Positions 18,887 through 60,773 of a DNA stretch of 64,000 nucleotides are shown here, one piece after another. The notes beneath the pieces are model-generated. The model made no database searches and was not told the origin of the DNA. It saw only the letters and a list, made by a program, of their open reading frames with translations. This stretch comes from Asterias amurensis. Lineage: Eukaryota; Echinodermata; Asteroidea; Forcipulatida; Asteriidae. Every line of letters starts with the position of its first letter. Within the stretch, counting starts at the first letter, position 1. The stretch covers positions 9,423,501 through 9,487,500 of the forward strand of contig NC_092669.1 of NCBI RefSeq assembly GCF_032118995.1, in the 5' to 3' direction. The translations under genes were made by a program, and so were the position numbers.

Positions 18887-19170
18887 TTAGTTCTTACAAA
18901 TGGATAGCTCAGAGAGACATTTCGCCAATTCATAGATGTAAAAGTCGCTGTCATGTTTTGGGATAACCTTGTCGAGTAGTTTGTAGAGATGACATCTGCC
19001 TGTTCTCGGTGCAAAGTCAAAGATGTAGCACAGATCATGTACGACGCAACGTGCGGCACACCTCTTGAGATTCCAAGCTACTTCAGTTGATAGAGGGTCG
19101 GGGTTCCCAATAGAGCTACCTTTGTATATGCGGTTGAAGTTTGCTGACCTGGATTTGGGGTAATCGACGA
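18887..19170 (-). CDS. Lectin gene exon 12: PAN/apple domain and stop
   Basis: Follows a tttttcag acceptor. It encodes VDYPKSRSANFNRIY, then a Cys pattern CAARCVVHDLCYIFDF, GRCHLY, and a late CLSELSIC, consistent with a PAN/apple fold with its helix cysteines and central strands. It ends at the gene's stop, so the domain is C-terminal. Confidence 0.8.
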
Positions 19171-22100
19171 CTGAAAAACAAAGTTTACAGATGTGACCCT
19201 TCAAAGTTTCAGTCTTGGACGGTTTTAAGATTCCGGGTCCTTAAGACTCATAGTATACTTGAATCTCTGTCAGAATGCCCCAAATCGGTAAAACTGACCC
19301 CAACATCGAGTTAACATTCCCCCTTTTTTCAAGCAGTGTCCAGGTCAACCTGAACTAGAATCAGGTCAAAGGACTATTGTGACTAGAAACATGGTGTGGC
19401 ATGAGACCCCCCCCCCCCCCCCCCCCCCCCGATACGGTGAACTGTGGAAACTTCTTCTTTTACCCTATTTTGACGCATTCTCCTTCATCATATCTTCCCC
19501 ACATGGGTGACATCATCCGGGGCAGATTTAGAGTATATGGGCGCCCTCACACGACTGAGTTTAAATGTTTGACCTCGAGCTAATTATCCATGCCATGTAA
19601 TGTAGGCCTATGTTCTTATTTATTTAGAGGAGAATCGGGCAAATTCGCCCAGATCAATATCATTGCTAAGTGTGTATTTTGATCAAATTATTGAATGTCA
19701 CTGATAAAGGTTATTTGATTGTTGTTTTGTCTTTTTTAAAAGAGTAAATTTGATTCATAAGGTCCAGTTTCCAATTGAAACATCATCCAACAATTGGGGA
19801 AAAAATCATCAAATTGGTGAAAACGGAAACCGTATACAATATCCTCACCTTTTGTTTGACTTTGACTAATTACGGTAACTTCTGCAGTAGTTGGAACGGC
19901 TGATGTAACGCCTGAAATAAAGTGAACATTATTAATGAATGTATCTGGTCGTTTGAACATTTCTTCCAACTAGTGATTGGCCTTAGTGCAACTCATGATG
20001 AGTTTACTCTCACCTTTTGTTGGAGTATCTCCTTCCACTGTAGTAACTGCTACAGTACCGGTAACTGTTGTAACGGCTGAAAAGAAACCAAACTGTAATC
20101 GTCCATTACTGGTGGAGATTTCAACCAGGTTCACAGGGGGTGGGGCTGACTCTACCCATTTCCGGCTCAGGCTGATAACTCACAAGTGTTTTGTGAAGTT
20201 TAAACCTGAATTATTGTGGACGTCTTCAGGGTCATTCTGACACAGATTTCGGGTCAGACTGAGCCCAAAATTGACCAGCACCAACGGGACTTTTTTTAGA
20301 GTAATTTTATTACATATTGCTGCAGAGATAATATAAGAGATGTCAGAGATGGAAAACATATTTCAAATACAATACAAAATCAACAACTGTGCATTATTTT
20401 CAAACTAGTGACGAGGTTTTTGTGCCGATTAAGCTCTTACCTTTTGTGGGAATTTGTTCTTCTGCTGTAACAGCTCCTACAGTACCGGTAATTGTTGTTA
20501 CGGCTGAAAAAAAACAATACAATGATATAGTCAAGCTTACTGAGATTTCATTTTGGTTCAGGACGACCCAGAAAGTGGACACTGTTGGTTGTCAAATACC
20601 AGTCTTCTCACTTGGTGTATCTCAACATTAAAGCCATTTGACCCTTTCGATAAACAGAATTGTCCAAGGCCCACACTTAGTGTATCCCAACTTCTATATC
20701 AAATAAAAAACCTGTGAAAATTTAGGCGCAATCGGTCATCGGAGTCGGGAGAAAATAACGGGAAAACCCACCCTTGTATCCGCACGTTTCGCCGTGTCAT
20801 GACATGTGTTTAAAATAAATCCGTAACTCTCGACATCGAGAATTGATATTGTTTTACTGTTTTCTCAAAAACTAAAGCATTTCATGGAATAATATTTCAA
20901 GAGAAGTCTTTCACCACTACCTTCTGTAAACCCTGTAAGTTATTTGTAAATCTGTGATTTTTTTTTTGTTTCTGTACCGAAAGGGCCCAATGGCTTTAAA
21001 ACATACAATAACAAGCCTGTAAACATTTGAGCTCAATCGGTCGTTTCGAGATAATCATGAAAGAAATAATACCCTTGTCACACCAAAGTTGTGTGCTTTC
21101 AGATGCTGATTCCGAGACCAATTCTAAATCTGAGGTCTCGAAATCAAATTCGGAGAAAATTACTTCTTTCTCGAAAACTATGTTACTTCAGAGGGAGCCG
21201 TTTCTCACAATGTGTGGACCATCAACAGCTCCCCATTACTCGTGACCAAGTATAAGGTTTTATGCTAATAATTATTTTGAGTAATTACCAATAGTGTCCA
21301 CTGCCTTTAAGAATGGGATTATAAGTCGGAGTTTGTGTCATTTTGAGTCTCTTCTGGGTCATTTTGTAAAAGATTCCAAGTCATATCGGGTCCGACATGA
21401 TCAGCACCAATGGGACCTGGATCCGGACGTTTTTAGAGAGACTTTATTACATGTGATGTCAGAGGTGGTTTCAATTGCCATACATCAACGACTTTGTGAA
21501 ATGTTCTAATAACTATAGTGATAAGTTCATCTTTTGCTGAACTTACTCTCACCTTTTGTAGTGGTTTCTCTTTCCTCTGTAGTAGGATCGACAGGAATCG
21601 TTGTTAAGGCTGAAAGAAACAAAGTCTTATATAAATATGGTCACATTACTGATGTCGACTTCTACAAAAACCTTTTTGTTATTGATGTAAAGGCACTGGA
21701 CACTAATGGTCATTACACATTGTACTTACTAATTACAATTGCTAACATAAAACTTACTTTGTAACGAGCAATGTAGGGCTTTATTGTTGTGGAGCCATTT
21801 CAGTAGCTTGATCCCACTACGACCTTTGTTGTTTAGCCCCCCCCCCCCCCCCAACCCGCCCCCATAAAAAACACTCTCCGACCATTGAACTGGCGCAGAT
21901 GACTCCTTGGTCGCACCACATGTATTTATTTCTTATGCTCATTGATTTACTGAGGTAAGAAACCTTTCTATTGAAATTAGTTGAAACTATAATTTAGTTT
22001 CCAAACATGAGTTTCATTTCCGTCTTCCGTTAGTCTAGTTTCCTTTTAAAGCCGTTGGACCCTTTCGGTAAACAGTATTTTCCAAGGCCCACATTTCGTG

Positions 22101-25100
22101 TATCACAACTTCTATATAAAATAACAAACCTGTGGAAATTTAGGCTCAATCGGTCATCGGAGTCGGGAGAAAATAACGGGAAAACCCATCCTTGTATCCG
22201 TACGTTTCGCCGTGTCATGACATGTGTTTAAAATAAATCCGTAATTCTCACTATCGAGAATTGATATCGTTTTACTGTTTTATCAAAAAGTAAAGCATGT
22301 CATGGACTAGTATTTCAAGAGATGTCTTTCACCACTACCTTCTGTAAACCCTGTAAGTTATTTGTAAATCTGTGAACTTTTATTTTTTTTCTGTACCGAA
22401 AGGGTCCAATGGCTGTAAGTAAAATAACAGCATAAAACATTTTTAGAAACGGCTCCCTCTAAAGTAACTATAAAACTATAAAATATATAGTATTTGAGAA
22501 AGTAATTTCTCAGTAAAATATTTGAATTGAGGTCTCGAATCTGAAAGCACACAACTTGGACGACCAGTAGACCGATTGCGCTCCGAGCGTCACGTGACCT
22601 ATAGTGGGTATGGGAAACTTTAGACTATCTGCCAATCACCAAGAGAGGGCGCTCTTCACCAGGTAATGTCAACAACTTAGGAATAGAAGAAGCATGAGTG
22701 ACGGTCACTGACAGCAAATACCTTGTGTTTTGCGTGTTTTTGATTTTGTATTTTAGATTTAGCCAAACTGTATTTTTGTTTTTCATAACACATTGCCAGC
22801 ATAAACCAAACTGTTCTGGAACAGGACGTACTGGACACGAGTTCCCCAATTAAGGATAACAAGCGGTGTGCATGAGTTTTGGGGAGTGTTTCTTCTAGGG
22901 TAATTAGCAAAAATTCCAAAATGCTGACCTACCTAAAATTGAGAAGAAATCTGAAGTTTAGTTGTATGACAATGTATCTGATTTAATTTTCAAGAGGCTG
23001 AGAGACTTCTAAATATTTTTTGAGTATTTTTGAATTTTTAGCATTTACCATTGTTTGCTATAGGAGTTGTGCACCCTTACCTGGTAGGTCTGCTGCCCTC
23101 TAGTGGCAGAGCTTTAAAAAAGTCTCCCACTGCATATAAACATGCGTTAAAAAGACACGATTACTGTTGCAGTTTTTGGATAAAAAATGATTAAATTTTC
23201 GAAATCACTGAAGGATATTCCGGAGTTTGTAACATGAGACCTTACCGGTGGCTGAACAATGCCAGTATTGGTAAACACGGTTCCACAAAATAGGAAATTT
23301 TAAGAGAATATTCACACGATGTCATGTGTTTGTGCACAGAAACTGTGGTTTTACATTGCCCTCATTTTTGCATGATTTTGCTGCCAATATTTTCAATAAA
23401 AATCTCTTTAAGAAGATCAAATCCCTTTATAAAATATTTGATGAGAAGGGGTAACTGTCGGCTATGATTTGGACAACTTCGCAATCTCCCTTATCACAGC
23501 CCAACTTCACGCCGTGCACAACGCAATATCCACGGCGCGTGAGCTCGCTCGAACCTCAGTAATTATTTACGATAGTCTAACCATACTCTCAAAAGAAACC
23601 TCTTTTGTAGTAGAATACTGGGAACATCGAACAGAAAATGTGATTTAAATCAATGTCATTCGGCACGTTAATCCGGCACGTTAATCCGGGGGTCGTTGGT
23701 TCGAATCCCAGTCTAGTCAATTCTTTGTTCAACCCCAAAAATCATTTACAAATTTACCCAGTCAGTTTCCCTTGTGGTTTATATTAAATCGATGTCATAA
23801 TATTCAACTTTATAAAAAGGGCTCCGTTTTTAGTTAAAAGTGTTATTAATTGAAAATACAGCCAATAATGGTCCATCGGTACGAGTCTTCCCATGTCTTT
23901 ACTGTGTAGCTGTGTTTTTTATACCCACTATCGTGATCACATGTAAACATTGGTAGTGCAATCGGTCTATTGAGTTCAACTGTTAACAGCCTTGTTATTT
24001 TATGCATAAGATACACCAAATGAGAAGACTGGTCTTTGATAATCACTAAAGGTGTCCAGTGCTTTTAAAGAAAATTAAATAAAAAATTGATGCTATTTGC
24101 TAAATTTTGACAGTATTGTTATAGACGGATCTATTTTTACTTTTGAGGACATCTGAATTGAGTGAGGCAGCTTGGTTTGAAACCTTGCTAAGATGTAGGC
24201 ATGCGTTGTCGATGCAGTACGGGACAATCTGAACATGGAGGTGCATTACAAATTATAAGAGGATACATGTTTACTCATGTTTGGATGGACAATATTGGTA
24301 ATTACTCAAAACGATTATAGCACAAAACCTTTTCTTGGTAATGAGTAAAGGGGAGCCGTTGGTAGTATAAAACATTGTGAGAAACGGCTCTCTCTGAAGT
24401 AATTTAGTTTTCGAGTAAGATGTAGATTTCCACGAATTTGATTTCAAGACCTCAGATTTAGAACTAGAGGTCTCGAAATAAAGGCACACAACTTCGTGTG
24501 ACAAGGGTGTTTTTTCTTTCATTATTATCTCGCAACTTCGACGACCACAATTGAGCTCAAATTTTCACAGGTTTGTTATTTTATGCATATGTTGAGATGC
24601 ACAAAGTGAGAAGACTGGTCTTCGGCAATTTCCAATAGTGTCCAGTGTCTTTAATACGACAATGCATATAATGTCTACACAAGTTTGCAACTTACAGTTC
24701 CCAACGTCAGCGCTGTACTCTTCCACCGTCACCTCAGCGATGTCTAGCTTCCCCCGATCATTGATATCCAAGCTGACATACCTGGCTTTTGCTGGTGGAT
24801 CGCACTTAAAACCAACCATGACGCCTTCAACAGACTGTTCCGCAGTTGCCGGTGAGCCACATTGTTGATTCTTAGTATGGGTCAAATTGACTCCTGCACG
24901 AACAGTCACACCAATGAAACGGTTTCCTGTTTGACAAATCAAAGATATTTGTTTGAGGTTTTGTTTGCAAAGATGCTTTGCAGTAACTTCTGTCACGGTT
25001 CCCTGTAGACCTACGGAATCCTGGAAGTGTTATATCCAGCTTGTTGAGATCCTGAGATCATTTACTGCAGGATCGCCAGACTCGACTGCCCACCGCTGTT

Positions 25101-28100
25101 AGGGTGTGAGATCTAGATGTCTCGAACGCTGTCAGATCAGTTGACTACTCAACCATGTTCAAACCTAAAACTGGTGTGACACGAGATTCTGTCCCGCCGG
25201 AGATTTTGTCCCCAAGTTGGCAAACTGTGTACCAACTTCTTCTGATAGATAGCGCCCTCTGTTGAATCATGCTCAGCCAATCTTAATTTCCCTTATACAG
25301 AATCTGTGTCAGACAGATTTCTTTGGGACGACAATGCAAAGTTGTATTTAATGGTTGTTGTGAAACTCTACATGATATACTTCCATTTACCACAGCAGTC
25401 TGCTCTTGGCGTAACGTTGACTCTGCCAATGAGGTGTTCGTCACCTAAGTCCAATCGCCACCAGGGATTAATTTGACTCTCTGCAAGAAGAACAGGTAGG
25501 ACTGTTTTAAAAGGAATATCGTTTCACACCATCAGCTCTCCTGGGTTATTTTTTTTTTGTACAACTAAAATGTGTACACTATATCCCTCTTCTTGGATGG
25601 TTGGACCAGTCTAGTCGACTATTCGACCATCCACTCGAGGCAGGTCGAGGTTGGTGGTCTCATCGTTGGTTACAAGGTACTCATGGCGCTGAGTACATAC
25701 AAACATTCAGTAAGATAATATTGCAATGATGAATTTTGAGACCCTAATAAGCACCTTATAAGGGTTTACAAGGTGCTACGGCGCATACAGCAGCCACAGC
25801 CAGGAACACCGGGGCGAACCCCTTCTCTTTTCGATAAGCGCACTGGGTTCTTTTACATGCGTTACACAACACATGGGACCAATGGCGTTACGTCCCATCT
25901 GAAGGACGAAGCAATGGTGAAGTGTCTTGCTTAAGGACACACGTGTAACGGCTGGGGATTCGAACCCACACTCTGCTGATCAGAAACACCAGAGTTTAAA
26001 CTTGGTGCTCTTAACCGTTTGGCCAAGACACTTCCACCTCAGCTTACACCTCACCAATTTGCTCGACTGCTACAGTAAACAAAACAAAAACGAAAATTTG
26101 CTTAATAGCGTTAATAAGCAGCGCTATAAAATTGGACACAGGGTACAATAAAGGCATCAATCGGGGCCCAGTTTCATGGCTCTGCTTACCGCCGAATTCT
26201 GCGCTTACGATCACGATTCCCCGCTTACGTGCAAGCGCCGAACTTCTGTGCTAGCCTTGTAAGCGTAGAATGCCTAGTTCGCCGCTTACCCGTGAAATAC
26301 GCTTGCCGTAAGCACAAAATTCCCTGCTTCCGTAAGCGCCGATTCCGTGCTTACGGTAAGTAGAGCCATGAAATTGGGCCCATATGATACGGATGTGTGC
26401 GGTGTGTTAAAACAATACAAATAGCAAGGGCATACTTGTTTCACTCCAAATGTTAATCTGTCCGTCAATTGCTGAGGAAGCAAGTAAATGATCACCACGA
26501 GTTGCGTGTTGTGAAGTTGGGTATCCAATCAGAGGTAAATCTGCAAGAAAACAAAAAGATTCAATTTTAAAATGCTGACCTATTGTTATTATATGTTTTC
26601 TCGGTCAATTTTGGAAAATGAGCAGCCAAACTATTCTATTTCGCGCAAAATCGAATGCTACTCAAAAGGGACATTCGATTTCGTTTTGGGATTAGTCAAA
26701 TGTAATGTTGCGTCATTCGAATTAACAAAATAATCATTTAATTTAACAATTCATCAGAGCAGCATTCAAATTCGTAGACGCTTCTTGAGGCGTGTGTGTC
26801 ACGAAAAAGAATGACGCTACGCTAAATTGAACAGAGGGCTAAAGGAATTTGACTCGACCCAAAACGAAATTGAACGGCCGAATTCTGAATTTGAAACGCA
26901 GTACCAACTGGAGAGGCAAAACAGCTTAAATTCGAACGCATGAAAATTAAATTGACTGCTCATTTGCCGAATTTGACCGAGAAAACCTATATTATTATTT
27001 ATTCGGCATAAAAACACATATACAATACAAACAGTTTACCAAAAAAACTGTAGCCCGATATGAAACATACACCAGATTACAACAATCAGACTTTCAAGAA
27101 AAACAAAATATTAGTATCATATCGTGCTGTGTTAAGTTACTTTTCCAGTAGCCTGAACATCTGACGTCACACTTCGAGGCTCGTGAATAACGCCAGAGAA
27201 TGGCCTCCAGCGTAGGCCAATCTCGTTCATATTTCACCTACATTCATTTAACATAGAGATACGCAGTCAAAATCTACACCAACACTATTACGTTGTAGAC
27301 TACACTCTCTGAATGTAAAAGATTGAAAAACACCACACTTTACATTTCGAACTGTCCCTCATTTACCTCTTTAAAAAGAGTGGTGGTAATTCTACTCTTT
27401 TAGAGGGGTTTCACTCCATGGCAGAGTGAAACATCACTCAAAAAGATGCAAACTTCAATCTAAAAGAGTGGAAGAACATGTCCCTCAAAATGGCTCTTCA
27501 AAGAGTGTTTTTTCACTCTTTTAAATTAAAAGAGCATGTATTATGTACCATACATAATACACGTGCAGACTCTGGTACACATTGACACTGCAAGCAGCAG
27601 ACAGACGACTGAAAGTAAAGTTGTCCATCTTTGTTTTGATTGGTCCGAAGTGGTATGTTTATCAGCTGCAACCACATCACCCCGACCAATCAAACAGCTA
27701 TGGAAAGCTCTCGTCACTGCACATTTATCCAATGAAATCCTTGTATCCAATGAAATCACTGGTTCTGAAAAGCAAGTACAAGCTGTCTTTATCCTTGCGG
27801 ATAAAAGACGGGGGACCATACTACTTTTCCAGGGGTCGATTTCACAAAGAGTTAGGACTAGTCCTAACTTTATAGGACTTGTCCTAGGAGATATACAAAT
27901 TGCATGGATAGTCCTAAATTAGGACGAGTAACTGGTCCTAACTCGAGATAAGACTGGATTCAACTGACATTAATTGGACACATGGGGGCGTTTGAAAAAG
28001 CTAATTAATTCCTTGCATAGGAGTGCGTTTTGGCGACCCCATCCAAGCCCAACCGACTCAACAAGTCGGTTACCGTTTGGTCTGAACCGCATCATCACCG

Positions 28101-31100
28101 CAGTTCAATAGAACACGCGAAATCGCTCGACCGATGACCACAGCTAAAACATGTTAATGGTTGGGGTCGCCAAAAACGCACTCCATCCTTGCCGCAAATA
28201 CTCGTTATACGCGCTGTATGCGTTGATTGAGATGTATGCAAGGCCCAATTTCATAGAGATGCTAAGCACAAAAAATTGCTTACCATGAAATTTCTTCCTT
28301 GATAAAAACAGCAAACCAACAAATTTCTCATTTGTTGCATATTGCTTGTTACTGGGAAGCTTTCTACTATCTTCAAACGGTGCAGGTTTAATGTACATGT
28401 TGTGTTACAAAAGTACCCAAATATCAGATAAGTATCAGATAAGTCTGAAGTGCCAACAGGATTTATACAATTGTGACAAGGGGTTGATTTGCAGCTACAT
28501 GGTCGGTCTTCTCTGTGAAATCGAGCGCAAATGTGAAATGAGCTTTGACCCTTCGACAAGATGTACACAGTTTTGTTGATTGGAAACAAATTCATCCATG
28601 GTAGTAACATAAAAAGGGATTGGATTGAATTAAAGTGAAAAGTAATGGAAGTTGGTGTGGTACCTGGACCTGTTGTGAGCTGAACTGTCACCTCAGCGAT
28701 GTGTAGGTCAACCCTGTAACCATTTGCAATATCCAAGCTGACGTACTTGGCTGTCATTGATGGGTCACAGATGAATGTAATCACGGCACCAGGTTGGGAT
28801 TGTTCCACAGTAGCGGGCAAGCCACACTGTTGGTTGTCAGTGACATTCGGACTTAACCCTGCTCGTGCTACTGCTCCGATGAAATCATCTCCTAAAACAG
28901 GGCAAAATGGTTGTTACATTCTGTAGGTCTACATTCTGTAGGGCGCACGGGGGTTGGCGTGCTCTCATATTTTAGTATCCGTGCTCACCCCCCCCCCCCA
29001 CTCCCTTCCCGTTTGCCACCCTGACTTTTTAGGTTAACAAACTTTAAAGGGACACGTTGCCTTGGATCGGGCGAGTTGGTCTATCAAACCGTTGGTTATA
29101 AACTGCATGGTTAGAAAGATGTTTATAAAGTAGAATATAATGATCAACACAAATATGCCTCGATATGGTTTTCCCTTTACGTCGTGAACTAACACGACAC
29201 GCCATTTTGTGGGGTCAAGTTTACGACTGAGAGCAGGTTTTGAAAAATTTTACGGTACTGCAAAACTGCATCAAATCATTCACATTTTAGCGAGGTGACA
29301 GCGGGTACAAACACCGCATCTCTGACCGCAGCACTCCCTATGGTACACCAACGATATATTTTAATCTCCAAAAGTCACCTGGATGTTATGGGGTTTTGAA
29401 AATAAAAAATTTCATATCTTCATAGACTTCTGACTAATGGGGTTATTTCAGATGAAGTAATTTCGCTGGGTGCTTACTATACAGTCTTTACCAAAGTAAG
29501 ACCCTCCTGTAAATTTCAGCTTGATTTGGTCATAGCAAGAGTTTGTCCTGTTTGCTCTCAGCAGTTTTTAACCCTAATACAGACACCATGGAAACATGTA
29601 TTACAATAACAATGCATTGATGATGCCCACGTCAGGTTTCTATGATACAACGAATTATAGTCACCACAACAGCCTGCTCTTAATGTAACTGTGATGCTAC
29701 CCAGATCGTAGTTTGTATCAAAATCTACTCTCCACCAAGGATGTGGGTCTGACGCCCCTGTAGTATAAAAAGCCAAAAACAAAACCCAGAATTTGGTCTT
29801 GATTAACACAGTAAGTACTGCTTGAAATCTGGTAATACCCCCCCCCCCCCCCCACCCATCACACCGAACTCAATCTCGCTACGTTCCGACAAGTATAGCC
29901 GAACGGGCTTAAAGTCACCTGGAAGTGGTATTTTGTCAAAATAAAGCTTTTGTCACTAAAATATGTGTTTTGATGAGTGGAATATGAAAAATCAATTAAC
30001 TAAGGTTTTGATCAATTAGTTTCCATGTTATTTACAAATTTGAAAATAAGCCCGACCCGAGAGGGCGCTGTTCGTGACGTCGATCGAGGCTCGATGTATC
30101 GCATGCAGTGCCAGCACAAGATAGTGACGCTTGGCGCAAGCTAAAAACATGCCATCAAAGTTGAAACAATACCTGATTTGTTTTCACGTTAGGCAAATGC
30201 TCCTTTAGGTTCGTTACGTCTTTGAGGTACCTTCTTCGACTTCCCCACTAGCTGGAAAAATTGTTAGGATGACGTCATGTTTTAGAAAAGAACTTTTTTC
30301 TTCATGTCATAACGTGTAGTGTATTCCGGATTCTCGAGGGTCGAAGTGTTTGCTGCAAAGCGCTGGAAAAGAAGTCGGACCGGACCGCTTTGCAAACTGA
30401 CCCGATCTTTAGTTGTTTTGCTGCATCCACCTGGTCGACATTGCCGGAAAAATGCAAGAAAAAACCCTTTTCGAAACGTAAAACTCACAACTAGGACTTG
30501 AATGTACTTGCAGGTAAGTGTGTTCGATGTTAGATCGAGGCAAAGTCTTCCTCGATTGACGTCACAAAGGGGGTAGGCGGGGTCATCCCCCACACAACTT
30601 TATTTATTTTTTTAAACATATAAATCGTTAAAAACAATTACTCAGAAAATTATGTTATTGATTAGAAACATATACTTTACTGTTTGAGGAAGAATAAATT
30701 ATATTTCCAGGTGACTTTAAACTGTGTGCAAACGGAGTGGATGTAGTAGCAAATGTTAATTACGCTGGACACCTTCGGTAATAGACCCTTCCCATGAAAT
30801 ATATAAATTGCACACGGCTAATGGGTGCGTGACGCAGACGCGATTGCGCGTCTGCTTAGTGCACAACTCTATGGTGTTTGCCAACCAACAGGGTCCGTAC
30901 GCATGCGTGAATGTAATCAGCATATTTCATGGGAAGGGTCCATTGTCATAGCCCAGTCTTCTCACTTGGTGTTTCTTAACATAATATGCACAAAATAACA
31001 AACCTGTGAACATTTCAGCTCAATTGGTCGTCGAAGTTGTGAGATAATAATGGGAAAAAAACCATTGTCACACAAAGTTGTGTGCTTTCAGATGCTTAAA

Positions 31101-34100
31101 TTCTGAGGTCTCGAAATCAAATTCAAGACACTTAACCATTACTGCCGCTTCATTCGGATGGGACGTAAAGCCGTTGGTTCCGTGTTACTTTTGTTAAATT
31201 CACGTAAACAAACCCAGTTCATTTATCGTATTGAGAAGGGGTTCGAACTGGTGTTCCTGGTTAGGTTGGCTGAATGTTGTGCCACGGGTGATTTGTAGAC
31301 AACATTATGACGAAAGATATAATAAAGTCACTTTTAAAAGTTTCCGCTGATTACAGTGTTTATTTGCTGACAAAACATCAACAAAAACCGTCTCGGTTTT
31401 GCACAAGAATATCGAATCAATCCGCGTTTCAGCTCCTTGGGGAATATACAGCATGTGGTGGCAAAATGTGGCGCACTAAGCTAAATCAATTACAACAACC
31501 ATATCTGCCCTCAGCACTAAGCTAAATCAATTACAACAACCATATCTGCCCTCACAGGTACCCATTTATCCCTGGACGGAGAGAAGCAATTATAGTAGTG
31601 TCTTGCTCAGGGACACATGTATCATGACTGGGATTCGAACCCACACTCTGCTGAACACAAACACCAGAGCTTGAGTTCGTGCTCTTACCCGCTAGGCCAC
31701 ATTTATAAAGGGGGGGATACTCCCACGAATGATTGTTAAGCTTACCGGATCTGAAGTAAGTAGTTGTGCTGCCATCCACAGCCTTGTCTGCTCTTAAGTC
31801 GTCGTATAAGTAAGTTTTGCTTTGTGATGCTGACTTTCCTTTGACGGAAAGAACTACAGATGGAGGTAAACAAATTGCACACACACGTTTATTTTATGTG
31901 TTCAATCAAAAGAAAGGGGAACAGATTAGTAATTGTATTAATTAAGTTAACCCCAAGACTGACTCAAGGCACTGGACACTATTGATAATTACTCAAACTA
32001 ATTATTAGCATAAAAACTTACTTGGTAACGATCAATGGAGAGCTGTTGGTAGTATAAAACCCTGTGATAAACGGCTCCCTCTGAAGTAATATAGTTTTTG
32101 AAAAAGAAGTAATTTCCCACTAAAATATTTGATCTAAATTCGAGACCTCAGCTGAGGTCTCGAATTCAAGCATCTGGAACCACACAATTTGTTTTTTCTT
32201 CCATTGTTCTCTCGCAACTTCGACGACCAATTGAGTTCAAATTTTCAGAAGTTTGTTATTTTGTGCATAATTATGTTGAGATACACCAAGTGAAAATACT
32301 GGTCTTTGACAAACACAAACAGTGTCAGGTGTCTTTAAAGGAACACGTTGCCTTGGATCGGTCGAGTTGGTCTTTGAAAAGCGTTTGTAACCGTTTTTTA
32401 TAAAATGCATATGGGTAGAAATATGTTGTAAAAGTAGAATACAATGATCCACACAAACATGCCTCAAAATTGCGTGGTTTTCCTTTTACCTTGTCGACTA
32501 ACACGTCGGCCATTTATGGGGGTCAAAATTTTGACTCCCATAAATGGCCGACCATGTTAGTTCGCACAGTAGAAAGAAAACCACGCAATTTCGAGGCAAA
32601 CTTGTGTGGATCACTGTATTCTACTTTTAAAACATCTTTCCAACCATATGCATTTTATAAAAAACGGTTACAAACGCTTTTGTTTTGACCAACTCGTCCG
32701 ATCCAAGGCAGTGTTCCTTTAAACAAAATGTAACTAAGTACAACAAAATTATGCTGGCCAGCATAGGGTTACCAGCCAAAATATAATATCATTTTATATA
32801 CTGTAAATGATATCATGGTGCATTTGAAGCAGAAACCTTATGAGCCATATTTTCTGCTTAGCAGCTCTAGGATGCAGTATTTTTATTGGCGGATAGTGCT
32901 ACTAATTGTGAAAGAAATTCGTTATAAAATAATATATAAATATATGTTTATTTTTTTATCAGAAGAATGACATAGACCTACGGGCAAAAAGTTGGAGAGC
33001 AATCTAATAATATGATATTATCGAGAGCTATAAATGACAACAAAGAGGTGTTCGGGCCATGACATGAATCCCAAGTCACTGTGATTGAAGATGGATTGTC
33101 TGTGGTGGGATCTACCTGTGGAAACTTTGGCTTCATGATTTTGAGAAAACAAGTTAAAATCACACCGCAATGTTTTCAGGAGAGTCGCGTAAAGGTGGTG
33201 TACATGCTAAAATAATTGTCGTCTCACTAGGTAATGCACCATAACATAAACGTAAGGGACACGGAAACTTCAAGTGGACGTATGGTAACGTTCGGGCATG
33301 TAACCGGAATTTTCATTGGTCACCCGATATATATACATATATATTTTTTTCTCTCGTGTATTTATGCCAGTTGTTCATACACACGCGTTTGAGATGGATA
33401 GTATGTAGACAGCCGTCGATTTCACAAAACTCTTCCTAACTTAAGACTAATCTTAGGACTTAGAACGAGTCCCAACACTGCATTGTAGCATGCAGACATT
33501 AATATTAATCCTAAGTTAGGAAGAGTTACTCGTCCTAACTCGAGATAAGACGAGTCCTAACTCTTTGTGAAATCGACGGCTTGATCCTTACGCCTCGCAT
33601 TAGTAGAACACTTTCTGCTTGCAACACTGCGAAGCAATATCCGGTAATTGGCAATTGTAACGCCTGGTAAAGCGTCTACGCTGACCTTTGACCGCTTTTG
33701 TTTTTTATCTCGATATCCTGAAACAATAATATCTATGATTCCAAATACGTAAACAATAAACCATTGTGCTCCATTAAAGAAAGCAAGACCAGTCTTCTCA
33801 CTTGGTGTATGTCAACATATGCATGAATTAACAAACCTGTGAAAAATTGAGCTCAATTGGTAGTCGAAGTTGCGAGATAATAATGAAAGAAAAAACACGC
33901 TTGTCACACAAAGTTGTGTGCGTTTAGATGGTTGATTTCGAGACCTCAAGTTCTAAACTTGAGGTCTCGAAATCAAATATGGGAAACTTACTTCTTTCTC
34001 AAAAACTACTCCACTTCAGAGGGAGTCGTTTCTCACAATGTTTTATACTACCAACCTCTCCCCAATACTCGTTACCAAGTAAGGTTTTATGCTAATAATT

Positions 34101-36677
34101 ATTTTGAGTAATTACCAATAGTGTCTACTGCCTTTAAGTGTCACTTCTGGGACGAAAAAAAAACGAAAAAAAAACAGAATGTTGTCCCCATTTATTTTGT
34201 TTCTTTGTTTGTAATTTTTTAGTCTACCATACATGTCTACATATTTTGCAAACAACATCGACAATCGGGTGTGAAGCATTGATAATTTCACTCAACGACA
34301 ATCTCATGACTGTGTAGTTGAAGGCTTACTGTAAGAAAAACATCCCTTTTCGAGCACTCATTAAAATCCAATTTAAACGCAAGCGACTCTGGGCGTTAGA
34401 TGTTTGCCGTCAAGGAAAGCAAACAGCATGCGGCCAAAATACAATTAATGGACTACCAGCTCATCATGAATTTTCTTTTAAAGGTAGCTATGCTTCATTG
34501 GATTTATTAATGAGCAATCAGAAAGATTTGAACTCAGAGTGAGCATTTGTTCTTGGCCCAACTTCATAGAGCATGCTTTAACACAAAAGGTAATAATAAC
34601 CGTATTTATAACGCGCCTTTTTCAAAAGGATACATATATAGCGCAATGTATTTACTGCAAGGTGAGTGGGACGAAGTTTGAATTACGACACATTATCCTT
34701 AGCCCCATGTTATGTTTCACGTGGTGCTGTGGCGCAATATGCTGCCTGTCAAACCAGGAACACCGGGGCGAAACCCTTCGCTTTTTCGATAAGTGCACTT
34801 GGTTCTTTTACGTGCGTTACACAAGCCACGGAACCAACGGTTTTACTTCCCATCCGAAGGACGAAGCAATGGTAATGTGTCTTGCTTTAAAACTCTGGTG
34901 TTCCTGATCAGCAGAGTGTGGGTTGAATCCCAAGCCGTGTGACACTTGTGTCCTTAAAGACTCTGACATTGTCAAAGACTAGCCTTCACAGTTGGTGTAT
35001 CTCAACATATGCATAAAATAACAAACCTGTGAAAGTTTGTGCTCAATCGGTCGTCGGAGATAATAATGAAAGAAAAAAACACCCTTGTCACACGAAGTTT
35101 CGTGCGTTTAGATGGTTGATTTCAAGTTCTAAATCTGAGGTCTCGAAATCAAATTCGTGGAAAATTACTTCTTTCTCGAAAACTATGGCACTTCAGAGGG
35201 AGCCGTTTCTCACAATGTTTTATACCATCAACCTCTCCCCATTACTCGTCACCAAGAAAGGTTTTATGCTAATAAATATTTTGAGTAATTACCAATAGTG
35301 TCCACTGCCTTTAAGTAAGACACTTAACCATTGCTTCGTGCTTCAGATGGGAAAGAGAAGGGGTTCGCCCCGGTGTTCCTGGCTGTGACTGCTGTATGGC
35401 CCGTATGACCTTGTAAACCCTAATAGAGTGCTATATAATTGGGTCTCAGAATTTATCACCAAACTATCTTTCTAAAAGTTTGTATCTACTCAGCGCATTG
35501 AGTACCTTGTTGGTAGATACGTGCGCTATATAAGACTTCGATATTGTCTAAAACTACAGAAGCGAATTATCATGAAGATCCTTGAGAGCTTGAAAAAGGT
35601 GATAATTACACGTTTTTTCACGTTTTTCACGCGAGGAAGTGTGTGCAGCAAAGTGAAAATAACATCTAGAATTATTAAGAGGCAAGTAGAGTGACATTGA
35701 TCTACATGTTGTGGTGATTTATTGTGAAGCATTAAAGGCAGTGGACACTATTGGTAATTACTCAAAATAATTATTAGCATATAACCTTGCTTGGTAACGA
35801 GTAATGGGGAGAGGTTGATAGTATAAAACATTGTGAGAAATGGCTCCCTCTGAAGTGAAGTGGTTTTCGAGATCACGAAAATGAGGTCTCGAAATCAAGC
35901 ATATGAAAACACACAACTTCGTGACAAGGGTGCTTTTTCTTTCATTATTATCTCGCAACTTTGACGACCGATTGAGCTCAAATTTTCACAGGTTTTTATT
36001 TTGTGTAGAAGTTGAGACACACTAACTGAGAAGACTGGCCTTTGACAATTACCAATAGTGTACAGTGTCTTAAAGCACTTTCGGATCAACACGACATGGA
36101 ACAGCTCTGTGTTTGTTCACAAACTTAAAGGAACACGTTGCCTTGGATCGGACGAGTTGGTCTATGAACAGCGTTTGAAACCGTTTGTTATGAAATGCAT
36201 ATGGGGAAAGATGTTTTAAAAGTAGGATATAATGATCCACACAAGTATCACTCAAAATTGCACGGTTTTCATTTTACGTCGCAAACTAACACGGTCGGCC
36301 ATTTATGGGAGTCAAATTTTTGACTCCCATAAATGGCCGACCGTGTTAGTCGACGAGGTAAAACGAAAACCACGGAATTTCGAGGCATATTTGTGTAGAT
36401 CATTGTATTATACTTTTACAACATCTTTCTAACCATGTCGATTTTATAACAAACGGTTACAGGACGCTTTTCAAAGACCAACTCGACCGATCCAAGGCAA
36501 CGTGTTCCTTTAATGTCTAGTTTTGTTTATTTGATAACTTTATAAATAATGTCCTGACTCACCAGTTAGTTCGGCGTCCACATGTTGAAGGCTGTACACC
36601 TCAAACACCAAGAGTGTCGCAAAAATCTTCCCTATACTCCAAAGAAAACGACCAAACTGGGTTCGAGTCGATGCCAT
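18887..36677 (-). CDS. Secreted multidomain lectin: signal peptide, 2 FTP domains, Thr-rich linker, PAN/apple
   Basis: Twelve exons: 36563-36677, 31746-31853, 29665-29757, 28664-28891, 26436-26540, 25391-25480, 24696-24926, 21553-21609, 20441-20503, 20014-20076, 19849-19911, 18887-19170. Total 1500 nt, 499 residues plus stop. Every junction is phase 1 and each internal exon length is a multiple of three, so the model closes without forcing. Residues 1-38: signal peptide. 39-181 and 182-323: two fucolectin-tachylectin-pentraxin (FTP) domains. 324-405: Thr/Val-rich linker. 406-499: PAN/apple domain. FTP domains bind fucosylated glycans in eel, horseshoe-crab and fish lectins; PAN domains mediate protein or carbohydrate contacts. 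A secreted recognition lectin is the likely role. The start ATG is supported by a paralogous exon of identical length at 60659. The exon 4 donor (GTACCA) is the weakest splice site. Confidence 0.85.
19407..19430. repeat. Poly-C tract
   Basis: Uninterrupted run of about 24 C just upstream of the PAN exon (gene orientation). Similar runs lie at about 21838-21853, 28988-28999, 29841-29856 and 61770-61786. Long homopolymers like these are prone to assembly error. Confidence 0.9.
19849..21609 (-). CDS. Lectin gene exons 8-11: tandem array of four Thr/Val-rich linker exons
   Basis: Exons of 57, 63, 63 and 63 nt (21553-21609, 20441-20503, 20014-20076, 19849-19911), each phase 1-1. They encode LTTIPVDPTTEERETTTK, AVTTITGTVGAVTAEEQ, AVTTVTGTVAVTTVEGD and GVTSAVPTTAEVTVIS with a shared ending of Thr-Lys or Gln-Thr-Lys before each donor. 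All have a cag acceptor and an AAAAGGT(G/A)AG-type donor. The peptides are Thr-rich and lack aromatics, fitting an O-glycosylated stalk between the lectin and PAN domains. Similarity shows they arose by exon duplication; they could be alternatively spliced without changing frame. Confidence 0.85.
20574..21306. mobile_element. T1 element copy split by a T4 insertion
   Basis: T1 sequence (GGACACTGTTGG to CTTGGTGTATCTCAACAT) is interrupted at 20632-20995 and resumes as ACATACAATAACAAGCCTG, ending in CCAATAGTGTCCACTGCCT and TTAA (21307-21310). Confidence 0.75.
20632..20995. mobile_element. T4 element: 364-bp TTAA-flanked MITE, copy 1
   Basis: Ends AGCCATTTGACCCTTTCG and CGAAAGGGCCCAATGGCT, flanked by TTAA at 20628-20631 and 20996-20999. 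The second copy at 22050-22414 matches across its length. It lies inside a T1 copy, so this insertion is younger than that T1. Confidence 0.85.
21687..21785. mobile_element. T1 fragment
   Basis: Left end GGCACTGGACACTAATGGT and following CATAAAACTTACTTTGTAAC, then lost. Confidence 0.65.
22050..22414. mobile_element. T4 element, copy 2
   Basis: Ends AGCCGTTGGACCCTTTCGG and CCGAAAGGGTCCAATGGCT. The left flank is TTAA (22046-22049); the right flank is GTAA, a decayed duplication. A T1-like fragment (AGAAACGGCTCCCTCT) follows to about 22560. Confidence 0.8.
22570..23930. other. Lectin intron, unassigned
   Basis: No exon recognised. Contains CGAGAGGGCGCTCTTCACC and a mirrored TGCCCTCTAGTGGCAGA about 480 bp on, which may be edges of an old element. 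A short tRNA-like B box (GGTTCGAATCCCAG) lies near 23697. Confidence 0.35.
23940..24066. mobile_element. T1 fragment (right end)
   Basis: Contains TGCATAAGATACACC, GAGAAGACTGGTCTTTG and AAGGTGTCCAGTGCT before TTAA-like sequence. Confidence 0.6.
24280..24651. mobile_element. T1 element, near-complete copy
   Basis: From GATGGACAATATTGGTAATT to CCAATAGTGTCCAGTGTCT, followed by TTAA. It sits 45 bp downstream of the exon 7 donor in gene orientation. Confidence 0.8.
24696..26540 (-). CDS. Lectin gene exons 5-7: second FTP (fucolectin) domain
   Basis: Exons 26436-26540, 25391-25480, 24696-24926. They encode GYPTSQHATRGDHLLASSAIDG (split here: GYPTSQHATRGD, then HLLASSAIDG), then NPWWRLDLGDEHLIGRVNV and RADCC, and finally GNRFIGVTVRAGV, QQCG and YVSLDINDRGKLDIAEVTV. 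RADCC followed by an Arg fits the FTP R-x-D-C-C-x-x-R fucose-contact motif. The usual upstream His of the fucolectin site is not evident, so sugar binding is not assured. The three-exon split, with CC|G at the second junction, is the same as in the first FTP domain, showing whole-domain duplication. Confidence 0.85.
25745..26035 (-). repeat. SINE type A, tRNA-derived
   Basis: On the minus strand the head reads GGCCAAACGGTTAAGAGCAC (A-box region) and GGGTTCGAATCCCCAGC (B box), as in tRNAs with a long variable arm. The body reads AAGAACCCAGTGCGCTTATC and CCGGTGTTCCTGGCTGTG. Length is about 290 bp. Confidence 0.85.
26166..26381. repeat. F2 foldback family, complete copy
   Basis: GGGCCCAGTTTCATGGCTCT at the left returns as AGAGCCATGAAATTGGGCCC at the right. 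The interior is made of GCTTACG/CGTAAGC units on both strands. Confidence 0.85.
27145..27828 (+). repeat. R1 dispersed repeat, copy 1 (interrupted)
   Basis: Starts CCTGAACATCTGACGTCAC and ends in the TATCCTTGCGGATAAAAG region. The minus strand of 54918-55316 has the same blocks: CTTCGAGGCTCGTGAATAA, TTTTGATTGGTCCGA and AATCACTGGTTCTGAAAA. This copy has about 300 bp of extra sequence (27285-27585) containing AAAGAGTG-type repeats. Confidence 0.75.
27831..27955. repeat. F1 foldback, right-truncated
   Basis: Begins CCAGGGGTCGATTTCACAAAG and is lost after AACTCGAGATAAGACT. It directly abuts R1. Confidence 0.8.
28242..28345. repeat. F2 foldback fragment
   Basis: GGCCCAATTTCATAGAGATG, GCTAAGCACAAAAAATTGC and CTTGATAAAAACAG match the left half of 62405-62818. 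Confidence 0.7.
28664..31853 (-). CDS. Lectin gene exons 2-4: first FTP (fucolectin) domain
   Basis: Exons 31746-31853, 29665-29757, 28664-28891. They encode VLSVKGKSASQSKTYLYDD, ADKAVDGSTTTYFRS, then HPWWRVDFDTNYDLGSITV and RAGCC, then GDDFIGAVARAGL, QQCGLPAT and AKYVSLDIANGYRVDLHIAE. The GKSASQS...KAVDG opening and PWWRVDF block are diagnostic of FTP domains. The R-x-D-C-C-x-x-R motif is altered to R-A-G-C-C-G-D-D, losing the Asp and the second Arg. This first domain may therefore not bind fucose in the classical way, while the second keeps RADCC-G-N-R. Confidence 0.85.
29042..29225. mobile_element. T2 foldback, half copy
   Basis: Starts AAAGGGACACGTTGCCTTGG and runs through CCATTTTGTGGGGTCAA, the left arm of T2; the right arm is missing. 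Confidence 0.7.
29913..30716. mobile_element. T3 element copy 2 (804 bp) in lectin intron 2
   Basis: TTAA (29909-29912 and 30717-30720) flanks AGTCACCTGGAAGTGG and ATTTCCAGGTGACT. It runs collinear with 2731-3520 with small gaps. Confidence 0.88.
30782..30942. repeat. Foldback element inserted in a T1 remnant
   Basis: AGACCCTTCCCATGAAATAT returns as ATATTTCATGGGAAGGGTC. T1-like sequence occurs on both sides (GCTGGACACCTTCGGTAAT before; CCCAGTCTTCTCACTTGGTG after, to about 31128). Confidence 0.75.
31473..31553 (+). repeat. 41-bp tandem duplication
   Basis: GCACTAAGCTAAATCAATTA and CAACAACCATATCTGCCCTCA occur twice in direct succession without mismatch, so the duplication is recent or an assembly artefact. 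Confidence 0.9.
31550..31708 (-). repeat. SINE type C fragment
   Basis: On the minus strand it has GGGTTCGAATCCCAGTCATG (B box) preceded by CAGCAGAGTGTG, and the head GGCCTAGCGGGTAAGAGCAC. It ends 37 bp from the exon 2 donor of the lectin gene. Confidence 0.75.
31966..32334. mobile_element. T1 element, abutting T2
   Basis: From AGGCACTGGACACTATTG to GTGTCAGGTGTCT. The TTAA at 32335-32338 is shared with the T2 element that begins at 32339. Confidence 0.85.
32339..32718. mobile_element. T2 element copy 1: near-perfect TTAA-flanked palindrome (380 bp)
   Basis: AGGAACACGTTGCCTTGGAT and ATCCAAGGCAGTGTTCCT are the ends, with TTAA at 32335-32338 and 32719-32722. The centre is GGGGTCAAAATTTTGACTCC. 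The two arms are complementary almost throughout, so the element folds into one long hairpin. Confidence 0.88.
33411..33583. repeat. F1 foldback, complete copy
   Basis: GCCGTCGATTTCACAAA at the left returns as TTTGTGAAATCGACGGC at the right, with internal CCTAAGTTAGGA units. Confidence 0.85.
33783..34133. mobile_element. T1 element, left-truncated
   Basis: CAAGACCAGTCTTCTCACTT to CAATAGTGTCTACTGCCT, then TTAA. Confidence 0.8.
34715..34965 (-). repeat. SINE type A, rearranged
   Basis: Body sequence (CACCGGGGCGAAACCCTTCG, CACTTGGTTCTTTTACGTGC) runs in one orientation. The following ACTCTGGTGTTCCTGATC and AGAGTGTGGGTTGAATCCC run in the other, so head and body are inverted relative to each other. 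Confidence 0.6.
34966..35310. mobile_element. T1 element
   Basis: ATTGTCAAAGACTAGCCTTC to ACCAATAGTGTCCACTGCCT, then TTAA (35311-35314). Confidence 0.8.
35315..35530 (+). repeat. SINE type A, body fragment
   Basis: GAAGGGGTTCGCCCCGGTGT and TCCTGGCTGTGACTGCTG followed by the tail GAGTACCTTGTTGGTAGATA and GCGCTATATAAGACTTCG. The head is missing. Confidence 0.7.
35736..36069. mobile_element. T1 element
   Basis: AGGCAGTGGACACTATTGG to AATAGTGTACAGTGTCT, with TTAA at 35732-35735 and 36070-36073. Confidence 0.85.
36128..36509. mobile_element. T2 element copy 2 in lectin intron 1
   Basis: TTAA-flanked (36124-36127, 36510-36513) palindrome, ends AGGAACACGTTGCCTTGG and CCAAGGCAACGTGTTCCT, centre GTCAAATTTTTGAC. 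It ends 53 bp from the exon 1 donor. Confidence 0.88.
36563..36677 (-). CDS. Lectin gene exon 1: signal peptide
   Basis: Encodes MASTRTQFGRFLWSIGK then IFATLLVFEVYSLQHVDAEL: a basic N-region, a hydrophobic core and a likely cleavage after VDA. It ends ACT G|GTGAGT, phase 1. The exon at 60659-60773 (+) has the same length and phase, and most residues are identical. The 5' flank is also conserved (GCGGTCTCTCT just before the ATG and TTTCTATGGCAAT further up), which supports this ATG over longer frame-open starts. Confidence 0.85.
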
Positions 36678-36937: not shown

Positions 36938-38042
36938 TACGAAAGCCCATTAGTGCCATCTTTATTTATATTTTCAAGAGCAGCTAATTATATTTTCACG
37001 AGCAGCTAATTTTATTTTTATGGACTTTACGAAACCAGGTTGGGTCACAGGCCTTAGAATTGCATCGAATACAGACCTGGTAGTTCAGTGACTCTTTATA
37101 GTGACCCCGTTTGACAAAGGCCGCACGACGCGCAGTCTATTTGTAGTAACATTTTCGCTTTTACATTTATTTATTTGGCAAGTGCATGCATTTATATTTT
37201 CAGTGCAGCTATTTTATATTTTCAGTACAGCTATTTATATTTTCGATGCAGCTATTTAAATTTCGATACATGTATTTATATTTTAAATACAAGTATTTAT
37301 ATTTTCAACACAAGTATTTATATTTTCAATACAAGTATTTATATTTTCAATACAAGTATTTATATTTTCAATACAAGTATTTATATTTTCAATACAAGTA
37401 TTTATATTTTCAATACAAGTATTTATATTTTCAATACAAGTATTTATATTTTCAATACAAGTATTTATATTTTCAATACAAGTATTTATATTTTCAATAC
37501 AAGTATTTATATTTCCAATACAAGTATTTATATTTTCAATACATGTGTTTATATTTCCAATACATTTATTTATGTTTTCAGAAAAATTAGTGGCTTTCCT
37601 AGGTTCAATCAATGGTTTACATGCACAACAGATACGGGCAAAACACATGCGATTGAGTTTTATGCCCGGTTTCCAAATGTCGACGCGACGTCCTTGTCGG
37701 CACAGCATACAGCCGAGTGCGCCCTCTAGGTCTTATTATATAGCTCTATGGTTTTCAGTATATGTATTTATATTTTCAATACACGAAACGTGGTCACTCA
37801 AGGGTCACTGAACTACAGGTCTGTATTCGATGTAATACTAAGGCCTGTGACCAAACCTTGGTTTCGTAGAGACCATAAAAAAATAATTAACTGCTCTTGA
37901 AAATATAATTAGCTGTTTTGAAAATATAAATAACTGCATTGAAAAAATAAATAACTGCATTGAAAACATAAATACATGTATTGAAAATAATAATGCATGC
38001 ATTGAAAATATAAATACAGATTGCACTAATGGGCTTACGTAG
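36938..38042. mobile_element. Large foldback element with internal minisatellite
   Basis: The left end CTACGAAAGCCCATTAGTGC is repeated inverted at the right as GCACTAATGGGCTTACGTAG. Arms of about 200 bp stay complementary (for example CACAGGCCTTAGAATTGCAT against ATGTAATACTAAGGCCTGTG, and CAGACCTGGTAGTTCAGTGAC against GTCACTGAACTACAGGTCTG). Between the arms lie the 21-bp array (37268-37600), about 150 bp of unique sequence, and diverged inverted units. This structure resembles the Foldback class, with long inverted repeats and internal tandem repeats. It starts about 260 bp upstream of the lectin start codon. Confidence 0.8.
37268..37600 (+). repeat. 21-bp minisatellite, about 15 units
   Basis: Unit TATTTATATTTTCAATACAA plus G, nearly invariant in the middle and degrading at both ends. 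Inverted diverged units (TTGAAAATATAAATAC) lie at 37890-38015. Because 21 is divisible by three, the array leaves open frames on both strands; these are not genes. Confidence 0.95.
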
Positions 38043-60658: not shown

Positions 60659-60773
60659 ATGGCATCGATTGGAAACCACTTTGGTCGTCTTCTTTTGCGA
60701 ATAGGGAAGATTTTTGCGCTATTCTTGGTGTTTGAGGTGTACAGCTTTCAACATGTGGACGCCGAACTAACTG
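60659..60773 (+). CDS. Signal-peptide exon of a second lectin-type gene, continuing past the right edge
   Basis: Encodes MASIGNHFGRLLLRIGK then IFALFLVFEVYSFQHVDAEL, then T and one base before GTAAGT. Length (115 nt), phase 1 donor and about 80 percent of residues match exon 1 of the 18887-36677 gene. That gene's first intron is 4.7 kb, so absence of a second exon in the remaining 3.2 kb is expected. It is divergent from the first copy, with the NLR between them. The downstream architecture (FTP, PAN or other) cannot be seen. Confidence 0.75.

Follow-up and report, generated by a model that had tools for sequence, protein, structure and literature searches.

A sea-star FTP-FTP-stalk-PAN gene whose stalk is composed of separate small phase-1 exons

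A 64,000-nucleotide stretch of the Asterias amurensis genome (the window; C22:9423501-9487500 of an assembly of 491,506,623 bases in 23 contigs) carries a twelve-exon gene on the minus strand, here called gene A, and the first exon of its paralogue, gene B. Gene A is a real, intact and already predicted A. amurensis gene, and what is new here is that the stalk of the encoded protein is composed of separate phase-1 exons of ~63 bp. The best overall explanation, to which we give a probability of roughly 0.68, is a secreted FTP-FTP-stalk-PAN protein, encoded by one member of a head-to-head gene pair, with a role in recognition or adhesion. The structural part of this explanation is very probable. 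The biological role, extracellular recognition or adhesion, is put forward tentatively from sequence features, at somewhat less than even odds.

The exons of gene A were placed by splice junctions, and the gene runs from window position 36677 to 18887, at C22:9442387-9460177, as follows.

36563..36677, minus strand: exon 1, start codon and signal peptide, 115 nt, donor in phase 1 (junctions, P0001 identity, 5' homology with the sister gene; signal peptide by eye)
31746..31853, minus strand: exon 2, FTP1 part a, 108 nt, phase 1-1 (junctions, Pfam, sequence comparison)
29665..29757, minus strand: exon 3, FTP1 part b (PWWRVD...LRAGCCG), 93 nt, phase 1-1 (junctions, Pfam, sequence comparison)
28664..28891, minus strand: exon 4, FTP1 part c, 228 nt, phase 1-1, with an alternative in-frame donor after 28670 (junctions, sequence comparison)
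26436..26540, minus strand: exon 5, FTP2 part a, 105 nt, phase 1-1 (junctions, Pfam, sequence comparison)
25391..25480, minus strand: exon 6, FTP2 part b (PWWRLD...PRADCCG), 90 nt, phase 1-1 (junctions, Pfam, sequence comparison)
24696..24926, minus strand: exon 7, FTP2 part c, 231 nt, phase 1-1 (junctions, Pfam, sequence comparison)
21553..21609, minus strand: exon 8, stalk, 57 nt, phase 1-1 (junctions; donor-flank intron homology with exon 9)
20441..20503, minus strand: exon 9, stalk, 63 nt, phase 1-1 (junctions; 50 of 63 nt shared with exon 10)
20014..20076, minus strand: exon 10, stalk, 63 nt, phase 1-1 (junctions; pairwise alignment)
19849..19911, minus strand: exon 11, stalk, 63 nt, phase 1-1, nearer the sister-gene stalk exons than exons 8-10 are (junctions, alignment)
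18887..19170, minus strand: exon 12, PAN domain and stop codon, 284 nt (junctions; Pfam PAN_1)

All 11 introns in this splice-junction reconstruction are GT-AG and in phase 1, the ten internal exons all have lengths divisible by three, and the spliced product has 499 amino acids. A preliminary description of the window had claimed twelve minus-strand exons with this intron phase, symmetric internal exons and a 499-residue product. These claims stand in every particular, and the span 18887-36677 is exact. The product matches P0001, a predicted A. amurensis protein that NCBI names 'uncharacterized protein', with 100% identity over 100% of its length. At the end of exon 4 two in-frame donors lie 6 nt apart, at 28670 (giving 497 aa) and 28664 (giving 499 aa), the latter being the choice made in P0001. 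For the species, a chromosome-level genome of 491.53 Mb is described together with a gene set built with RNA-seq from nine tissues (PMC10625585). Homology between gene A and its sister extends from 54 nt upstream of the ATG through the exon 1 donor, and ahead of the ATG it is interrupted by a 1-nt indel, which is the pattern expected for untranslated sequence; together these support the gene A start codon. A chance chain of exons is ruled out by the identical P0001 and by conservation in Asterias rubens and in the sister gene. An alternative promoter was considered from the A. rubens model P0002, which starts with 'MACRVSSRR' and is without exons 1-3, and we take that start to be a model artefact; the same peptide is also encoded at window 29044-29214. 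In our judgement the phase pattern is less extreme than it appears, with about five independent junction types, because the gene contains two FTP exon trios and a set of mutually copied stalk exons. Upstream of exon 1, at a distance of ~0.5-1.3 kb, lie 21-bp tandem repeats (window 37190-37580, 18.6 copies, and 37878-38016, 6.6 copies) in which several frames are open.

The domain order proposed in the preliminary description, FTP, FTP, Thr linkers and PAN, is borne out by the profile searches it had suggested: Pfam supports FTP-FTP and PAN in the gene A product, with FTP and PAN both above cut-off. Structure comparison backs the FTP domains as an F5_8-C-like jelly-roll, with fucolectins as the best matches; its rows mostly cover residues 38-320. 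The contiguous cysteine pair of eel agglutinin (Cys82-Cys83) is kept in both FTP domains. The data thus support a protein with a signal peptide (by inspection), two FTP domains, a Thr-rich stalk and a C-terminal PAN domain (by Pfam alone).

Gene B, the paralogue, corresponds to the predicted public protein P0003 of 594 aa. Its first exon lies within the window and the remainder beyond it, up to C22:9517919. The gene B locus thus occupies C22:9484159-9517919, with its stalk exons at C22:9515207-9516925.

60659..60773, plus strand: gene B exon 1 (sequence comparison, P0003 mapping)

P0003 maps exactly onto 15 exons, namely the signal peptide exon, three exons for each FTP, seven stalk exons and the PAN exon. 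Exons 1 (115), 2 (108) and 7 (231) and the PAN exon (281 plus stop) are equal in length in the two genes, and exons 3 (96 in gene B vs 93 in gene A) and 4 (240 vs 228) differ. In the P0003 model 13 of the 14 introns are in phase 1. The two exons preceding exon 7 (124 and 143 nt) have out-of-pattern donor and acceptor sites and enclose one phase-2 intron; we treat this junction, between FTP2 parts a and b, as a model variant, and it is possibly an exception to the phase-1 rule. The PAN domains of the two genes are 88% identical. For the third FTP exon, identity is 72% between the FTP1 copies and 85.5% between the FTP2 copies, against 54.5% and 48% crosswise. Because like FTPs match better than crosswise pairs, the alignments indicate that the FTP duplication most likely preceded the duplication of the gene. 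Genes A and B stand head to head with a NACHT-LRR open frame between them, a long frame at window 49048-52326 on the plus strand with a NACHT match of 76.9 bits and leucine-rich repeats, as in NLR-type receptors.

The clearest evidence on how the stalk was built comes from gene B. Its stalk exons measure 63, 63, 63, 63, 66, 63 and 63 bp, each has its own splice sites, and all seven exit in phase 1. Tandem Repeats Finder (TRF) detects tandem arrays of two periods across this stretch, one of 196 bp (6.8 copies at 73% and 3.2 copies at 94%) and the other of 254 bp (2.4 copies at 94%). The intron flanks downstream of units 3-6 are identical at 105-107 of 108 positions, reaching 120 of 120 for units 5 and 6, and those upstream of units 6 and 7 are likewise identical at 120 of 120; units 1 and 2 are more diverged than the later ones. 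The gene B stalk arose by tandem duplication of an exon together with flanking intron. In gene A, exons 9 and 10 are identical at 50 of 63 bases, and the donor-side introns of exons 8 and 9 align with a score of 46, where 1100 shuffles gave at most 36. Acceptor flanks reach a best score of 28 (exons 9/10 and 8/10), equalled in 0.8% of shuffles. Exon 11 with its flanks scores 47-99 against the gene B units and exons 8-10 score 19-42. Judged from these alignments, the gene A array is the older of the two, and origin of the stalk exons by tandem duplication seems clear in gene B and weaker in gene A. In predicted models the number of stalk units is 10 in A. rubens P0004 vs 7 in P0003, and three in A. 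rubens P0002 vs four in P0001. This difference between A. rubens and A. amurensis models suggests that stalk copy number has changed within the genus Asterias.

A bolder extension of these observations is that the stalk behaves as an exon minisatellite, in which frame-neutral exons would let stalk length vary allele by allele through unequal crossing-over, with heads that would have moved off fucose, so that the whole would form a rapidly diversifying recognition system. We regard this as a speculative possibility with the odds clearly against it. If it were true, sea stars would possess a rapidly diversifying secreted recognition system. The stalk of duplicated frame-neutral exons is the aspect most worth following: it offers a clear genomic case of a glycoprotein stalk apparently growing by duplication of one tiny symmetric exon with its splice sites, and such duplication is directly testable from population reads.

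Whether the heads bind fucose bears on the name of the gene, which the preliminary description had called a lectin gene. The fucose motif of F-type lectins is H-X24-R-X-D-X4-(R/K), and departures from it may signal another specificity or lost binding (PMC5712786). At the Arg, Asp and Arg places, the alignment gives Arg, Gly, Asp in FTP1 and Arg, Asp, Arg in FTP2 of gene A, and Arg, Asp, Gly in FTP1 and Lys, Phe, Gly in FTP2 of gene B. The His place reads Arg (FTP1) and Glu (FTP2) in gene A and Ser (FTP1) and Ala (FTP2) in gene B, as read from a separate alignment and exon-boundary anchoring, the His column being gapped for most sea-star rows in the family alignment. Within the FTP trio, each of the three basic ligand-contact positions falls on an exon of its own. 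P0005, an A. amurensis protein without PAN, has His, Arg, Asp and Arg complete in all three of its FTP domains, so the canonical fucose type is present elsewhere in the species. In the single-FTP PAN relatives Ser-His is conserved in all 6 rows and the two Arg in 5 of 6, the five rows that contain the middle exon, but the Asp is replaced, so their motif is not strictly canonical either. The departure is greater in P0060, P0066 and most FTPs of P0045. As aligned, the fucose site of the A/B pair is less complete than in most single-FTP relatives. Because the fucose-contact residues are incomplete in both FTP domains of gene A, the label 'lectin' is unproven, and the ligand of the heads is probably something other than plain fucose.

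It is accordingly unlikely that gene A encodes a canonical fucose-binding immune lectin plus PAN, with both heads binding fucosylated microbial glycans in the manner of the eel and bass fucolectins. The structural matches, the retained Arg, Asp and Arg of FTP2 and the cysteine pair in both FTPs do favor such a protein, but the gene A motif is incomplete (Arg/Arg, Gly, Asp in FTP1; Glu/Arg, Asp, Arg in FTP2), the sister gene has Ser and Ala at the His place, and the canonical type is carried in the same species by P0005, which has no PAN. A change of ligand in F-type lectins is testable here, with the fucose residues lost in the A/B pair and kept in P0005.

Gene A is not alone in its architecture. 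Three protein searches each scored ~8,000 candidates, and the two made with family alignments recovered FTP-PAN proteins from Patiria miniata, Acanthaster planci, A. rubens and A. amurensis, with no absence from other echinoderm classes implied. Both Pfam cut-offs, for FTP and PAN, were passed by 13 of 20 scanned relatives; in 12 the FTP precedes the PAN, all of them sea-star proteins from the four species (9/10 in the first scan, 3/10 in the second), and the bryozoan P0077 passes both with the PAN first. P0061 and P0066 each missed one cut-off, the Pfam scan found no scoring FTP in P0047 or P0052 and no PAN in P0005, P0063 or P0065, and the coral protein P0040 lists both FTP and PAN among other domains. 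In the A. amurensis genome, 13 matches to the PAN part of P0048 were listed; in 10 of them, genes A and B included, a same-strand FTP exon lies no more than 6 kb away, and for C22:2784783, C16:5300408 and C6:18313647 there was no FTP exon within 6 kb among the matches listed. At each of four FTP-PAN loci (L013-L016) the middle FTP exon can be bounded by phase-1 acceptor and donor sites, and two of these loci have a second acceptor candidate. Some predicted models apparently lack one FTP exon in frame, namely the X2 isoforms P0047 and P0052 (middle exon) and P0064 (first), and P0004 apparently lacks the middle exon of FTP2. A locus on C7 was considered as the source of P0017 and ruled out, the identity being 53-73%.

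By predicted domain content, gene A is the two-FTP form of an FTP(n)-PAN family expanded in sea stars. The echinoderm search proposed in the preliminary description thus did recover the same order, FTP before PAN, in four sea-star species. A unique architecture is ruled out by the relatives among sea-star proteins (12 with this order) and in the genome, although no paper describing FTP-PAN proteins was found among the open-access items listed (titles and abstract beginnings). Five LOC numbers likewise returned no open-access paper, and a five-word search of the main text of a 2026 A. rubens coelomocyte proteome gave 0 matches in the part of it covered (PMC13409769). Within reach of these literature searches, gene A is a family member without a description so far; it and the expanded family are now recognisable as FTP(n)-stalk-PAN proteins.

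These relatives also bear on the claim of modular exon shuffling that had been drawn from the symmetric 1-1 exons. The symmetric phases are present, but for the stalk tandem exon duplication is the better explanation because of the gene B array and its near-identical intron flanks; outside the stalk the 1-1 phases are compatible with shuffling and are no proof of it. That recent shuffling joined FTP, stalk and PAN from separate genes into gene A is quite unlikely. Every gene A intron is in phase 1 and Patiria relatives put the same FTP type beside WSC and receptor tyrosine kinase domains, which speaks for shuffling, but internal duplication accounts for the two FTPs and the stalk, and the FTP-PAN junction is old, since it is shared by Patiria, Acanthaster and both Asterias species. 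It is very unlikely that the stalk exons are a functionless minisatellite spliced in by accident, with only heads and PAN under selection, since splice sites and phase are kept in 7/7 units of gene B and 4/4 of gene A, the 63-nt length in 6/7 (one of 66) and 3/4 (one of 57), and the Thr-rich composition is retained, even though PAN (88%) and the third FTP2 exon (85.5%) are conserved between the genes and the stalk has diverged in sequence and number.

Duplication was also seen elsewhere among FTP sequences of the genome. Two FTP-PAN loci ~183 kb apart (C16:5225304-5227292 and 5408812-5410707) have near-equal spacing and scores and are apparently a recent duplication. At C8:20564312-20583027 a repeat search detected a tandem FTP-exon array with a unit of ~1.26-1.37 kb and 15 FTP matches along it, where TRF, with a period limit of 500 bases, returned nothing. 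Six array copies (L017, C8:20562000-20571900) are 91-99% identical in most 300-nt blocks and 66-81% in some. The Patiria miniata models P0046 and P0020 combine FTP with WSC, CCP or EGF-like domains, a transmembrane segment (by eye) and a tyrosine kinase domain.

Under the preferred reading, a secreted FTP-FTP-stalk-PAN protein from a head-to-head gene pair, each FTP would be built from three symmetric exons and the stalk would lengthen or shorten through unequal exchange of ~63-bp exons, the reading frame surviving such changes because all boundaries are in phase 1. The protein would be secreted, with a Thr-rich stalk that is probably O-glycosylated. The paired FTP heads may bind a glycan or some other ligand on a surface, canonical binding of fucose being improbable; the stalk with its glycans would space them from the PAN, which may bind a partner protein or glycan or self-associate. 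Innate immunity is a first guess for the role, with adhesive mucus and gamete recognition as alternatives. The guess draws on two arguments, both weak: some F-type lectins serve immune recognition (PMC5712786), and a NACHT-LRR frame lies between the genes.

Several results count against this reading. The PAN_1 match scores 23.5 bits over a gathering cut-off of 21.4, a slim margin, with scores in relatives reaching 36.1 bits. The AlphaFold2 (AF2) model has a mean predicted local distance difference test (pLDDT) of 64 and a predicted template modeling score (pTM) of 0.35, and so does not give the relative arrangement of the parts. None of the four FTP domains of genes A and B has a complete fucose motif. 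Within the gene A stalk, donor-flank pairs other than exons 8/9 score at most 31, non-stalk intron pairs reach 31-36 (exons 1/7, 6/7, 3/7 and 1/6), and the pairs 8/10, 9/10 and 10/11 fall outside the best eight of 55. The stalk counts behind the copy-number change come from predicted gene models.

Two further features lie in the window. At 10378-13214 on the minus strand, two open frames match Neurexophilin and the NXPE4 C-terminal domain and are probably exons of one NXPE-type gene, and 1396-2166 on the plus strand encodes an Olfactomedin-like domain (130 bits).

Among known systems, the F-type lectins FBP32 of striped bass (PDB 3cqo) and eel agglutinin (1k12) resemble gene A in the FTP fold, in tandem domains and in Pfam and structure matches, and differ from it in that gene A has an incomplete fucose motif and an added Thr stalk and PAN. 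Frequent partners of F-type lectin domains are given as CTLD, pentraxin, CCP, transmembrane (TM) and FA58C, and in the part of that source searched PAN was not found as a domain, the sole whole-word match to 'PAN' being an author's name (PMC5712786). Sea urchin SpCRL, a mosaic protein from another echinoderm, combines an F-type lectin domain with an S/T/P-rich part; compared by description, it differs in that no PAN is named for it in the passage concerned (PMC5712786). Oyster sperm bindin has tandem F-lectin repeats, each with a mid-domain intron, whose number varies by splicing and recombination, and as described there neither a PAN nor an exon-array stalk is mentioned for it (PMC5712786). 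Schistosome micro-exon genes (MEGs) encode secreted proteins from short symmetric exons, some predicted to be heavily O-glycosylated (PMC5825161); their exons are 6-36 bp against ~63 bp in the stalk, and no kinship is suggested.

The sea-star FTP-PAN proteins (P0011 and P0048 of Patiria, P0016 of Acanthaster, P0017 of A. amurensis) share with gene A the order FTP then PAN, and differ in having mostly one FTP and a linker that is short or otherwise built. FTP number also varies, with two in gene A, two in P0060, where the first is incomplete, and about six diverged copies in P0045. Vertebrate mucins have Thr-rich tandem repeats in variable number, usually within one large exon. The stalk of genes A and B is unlike them in that every repeat is a separate spliced exon.
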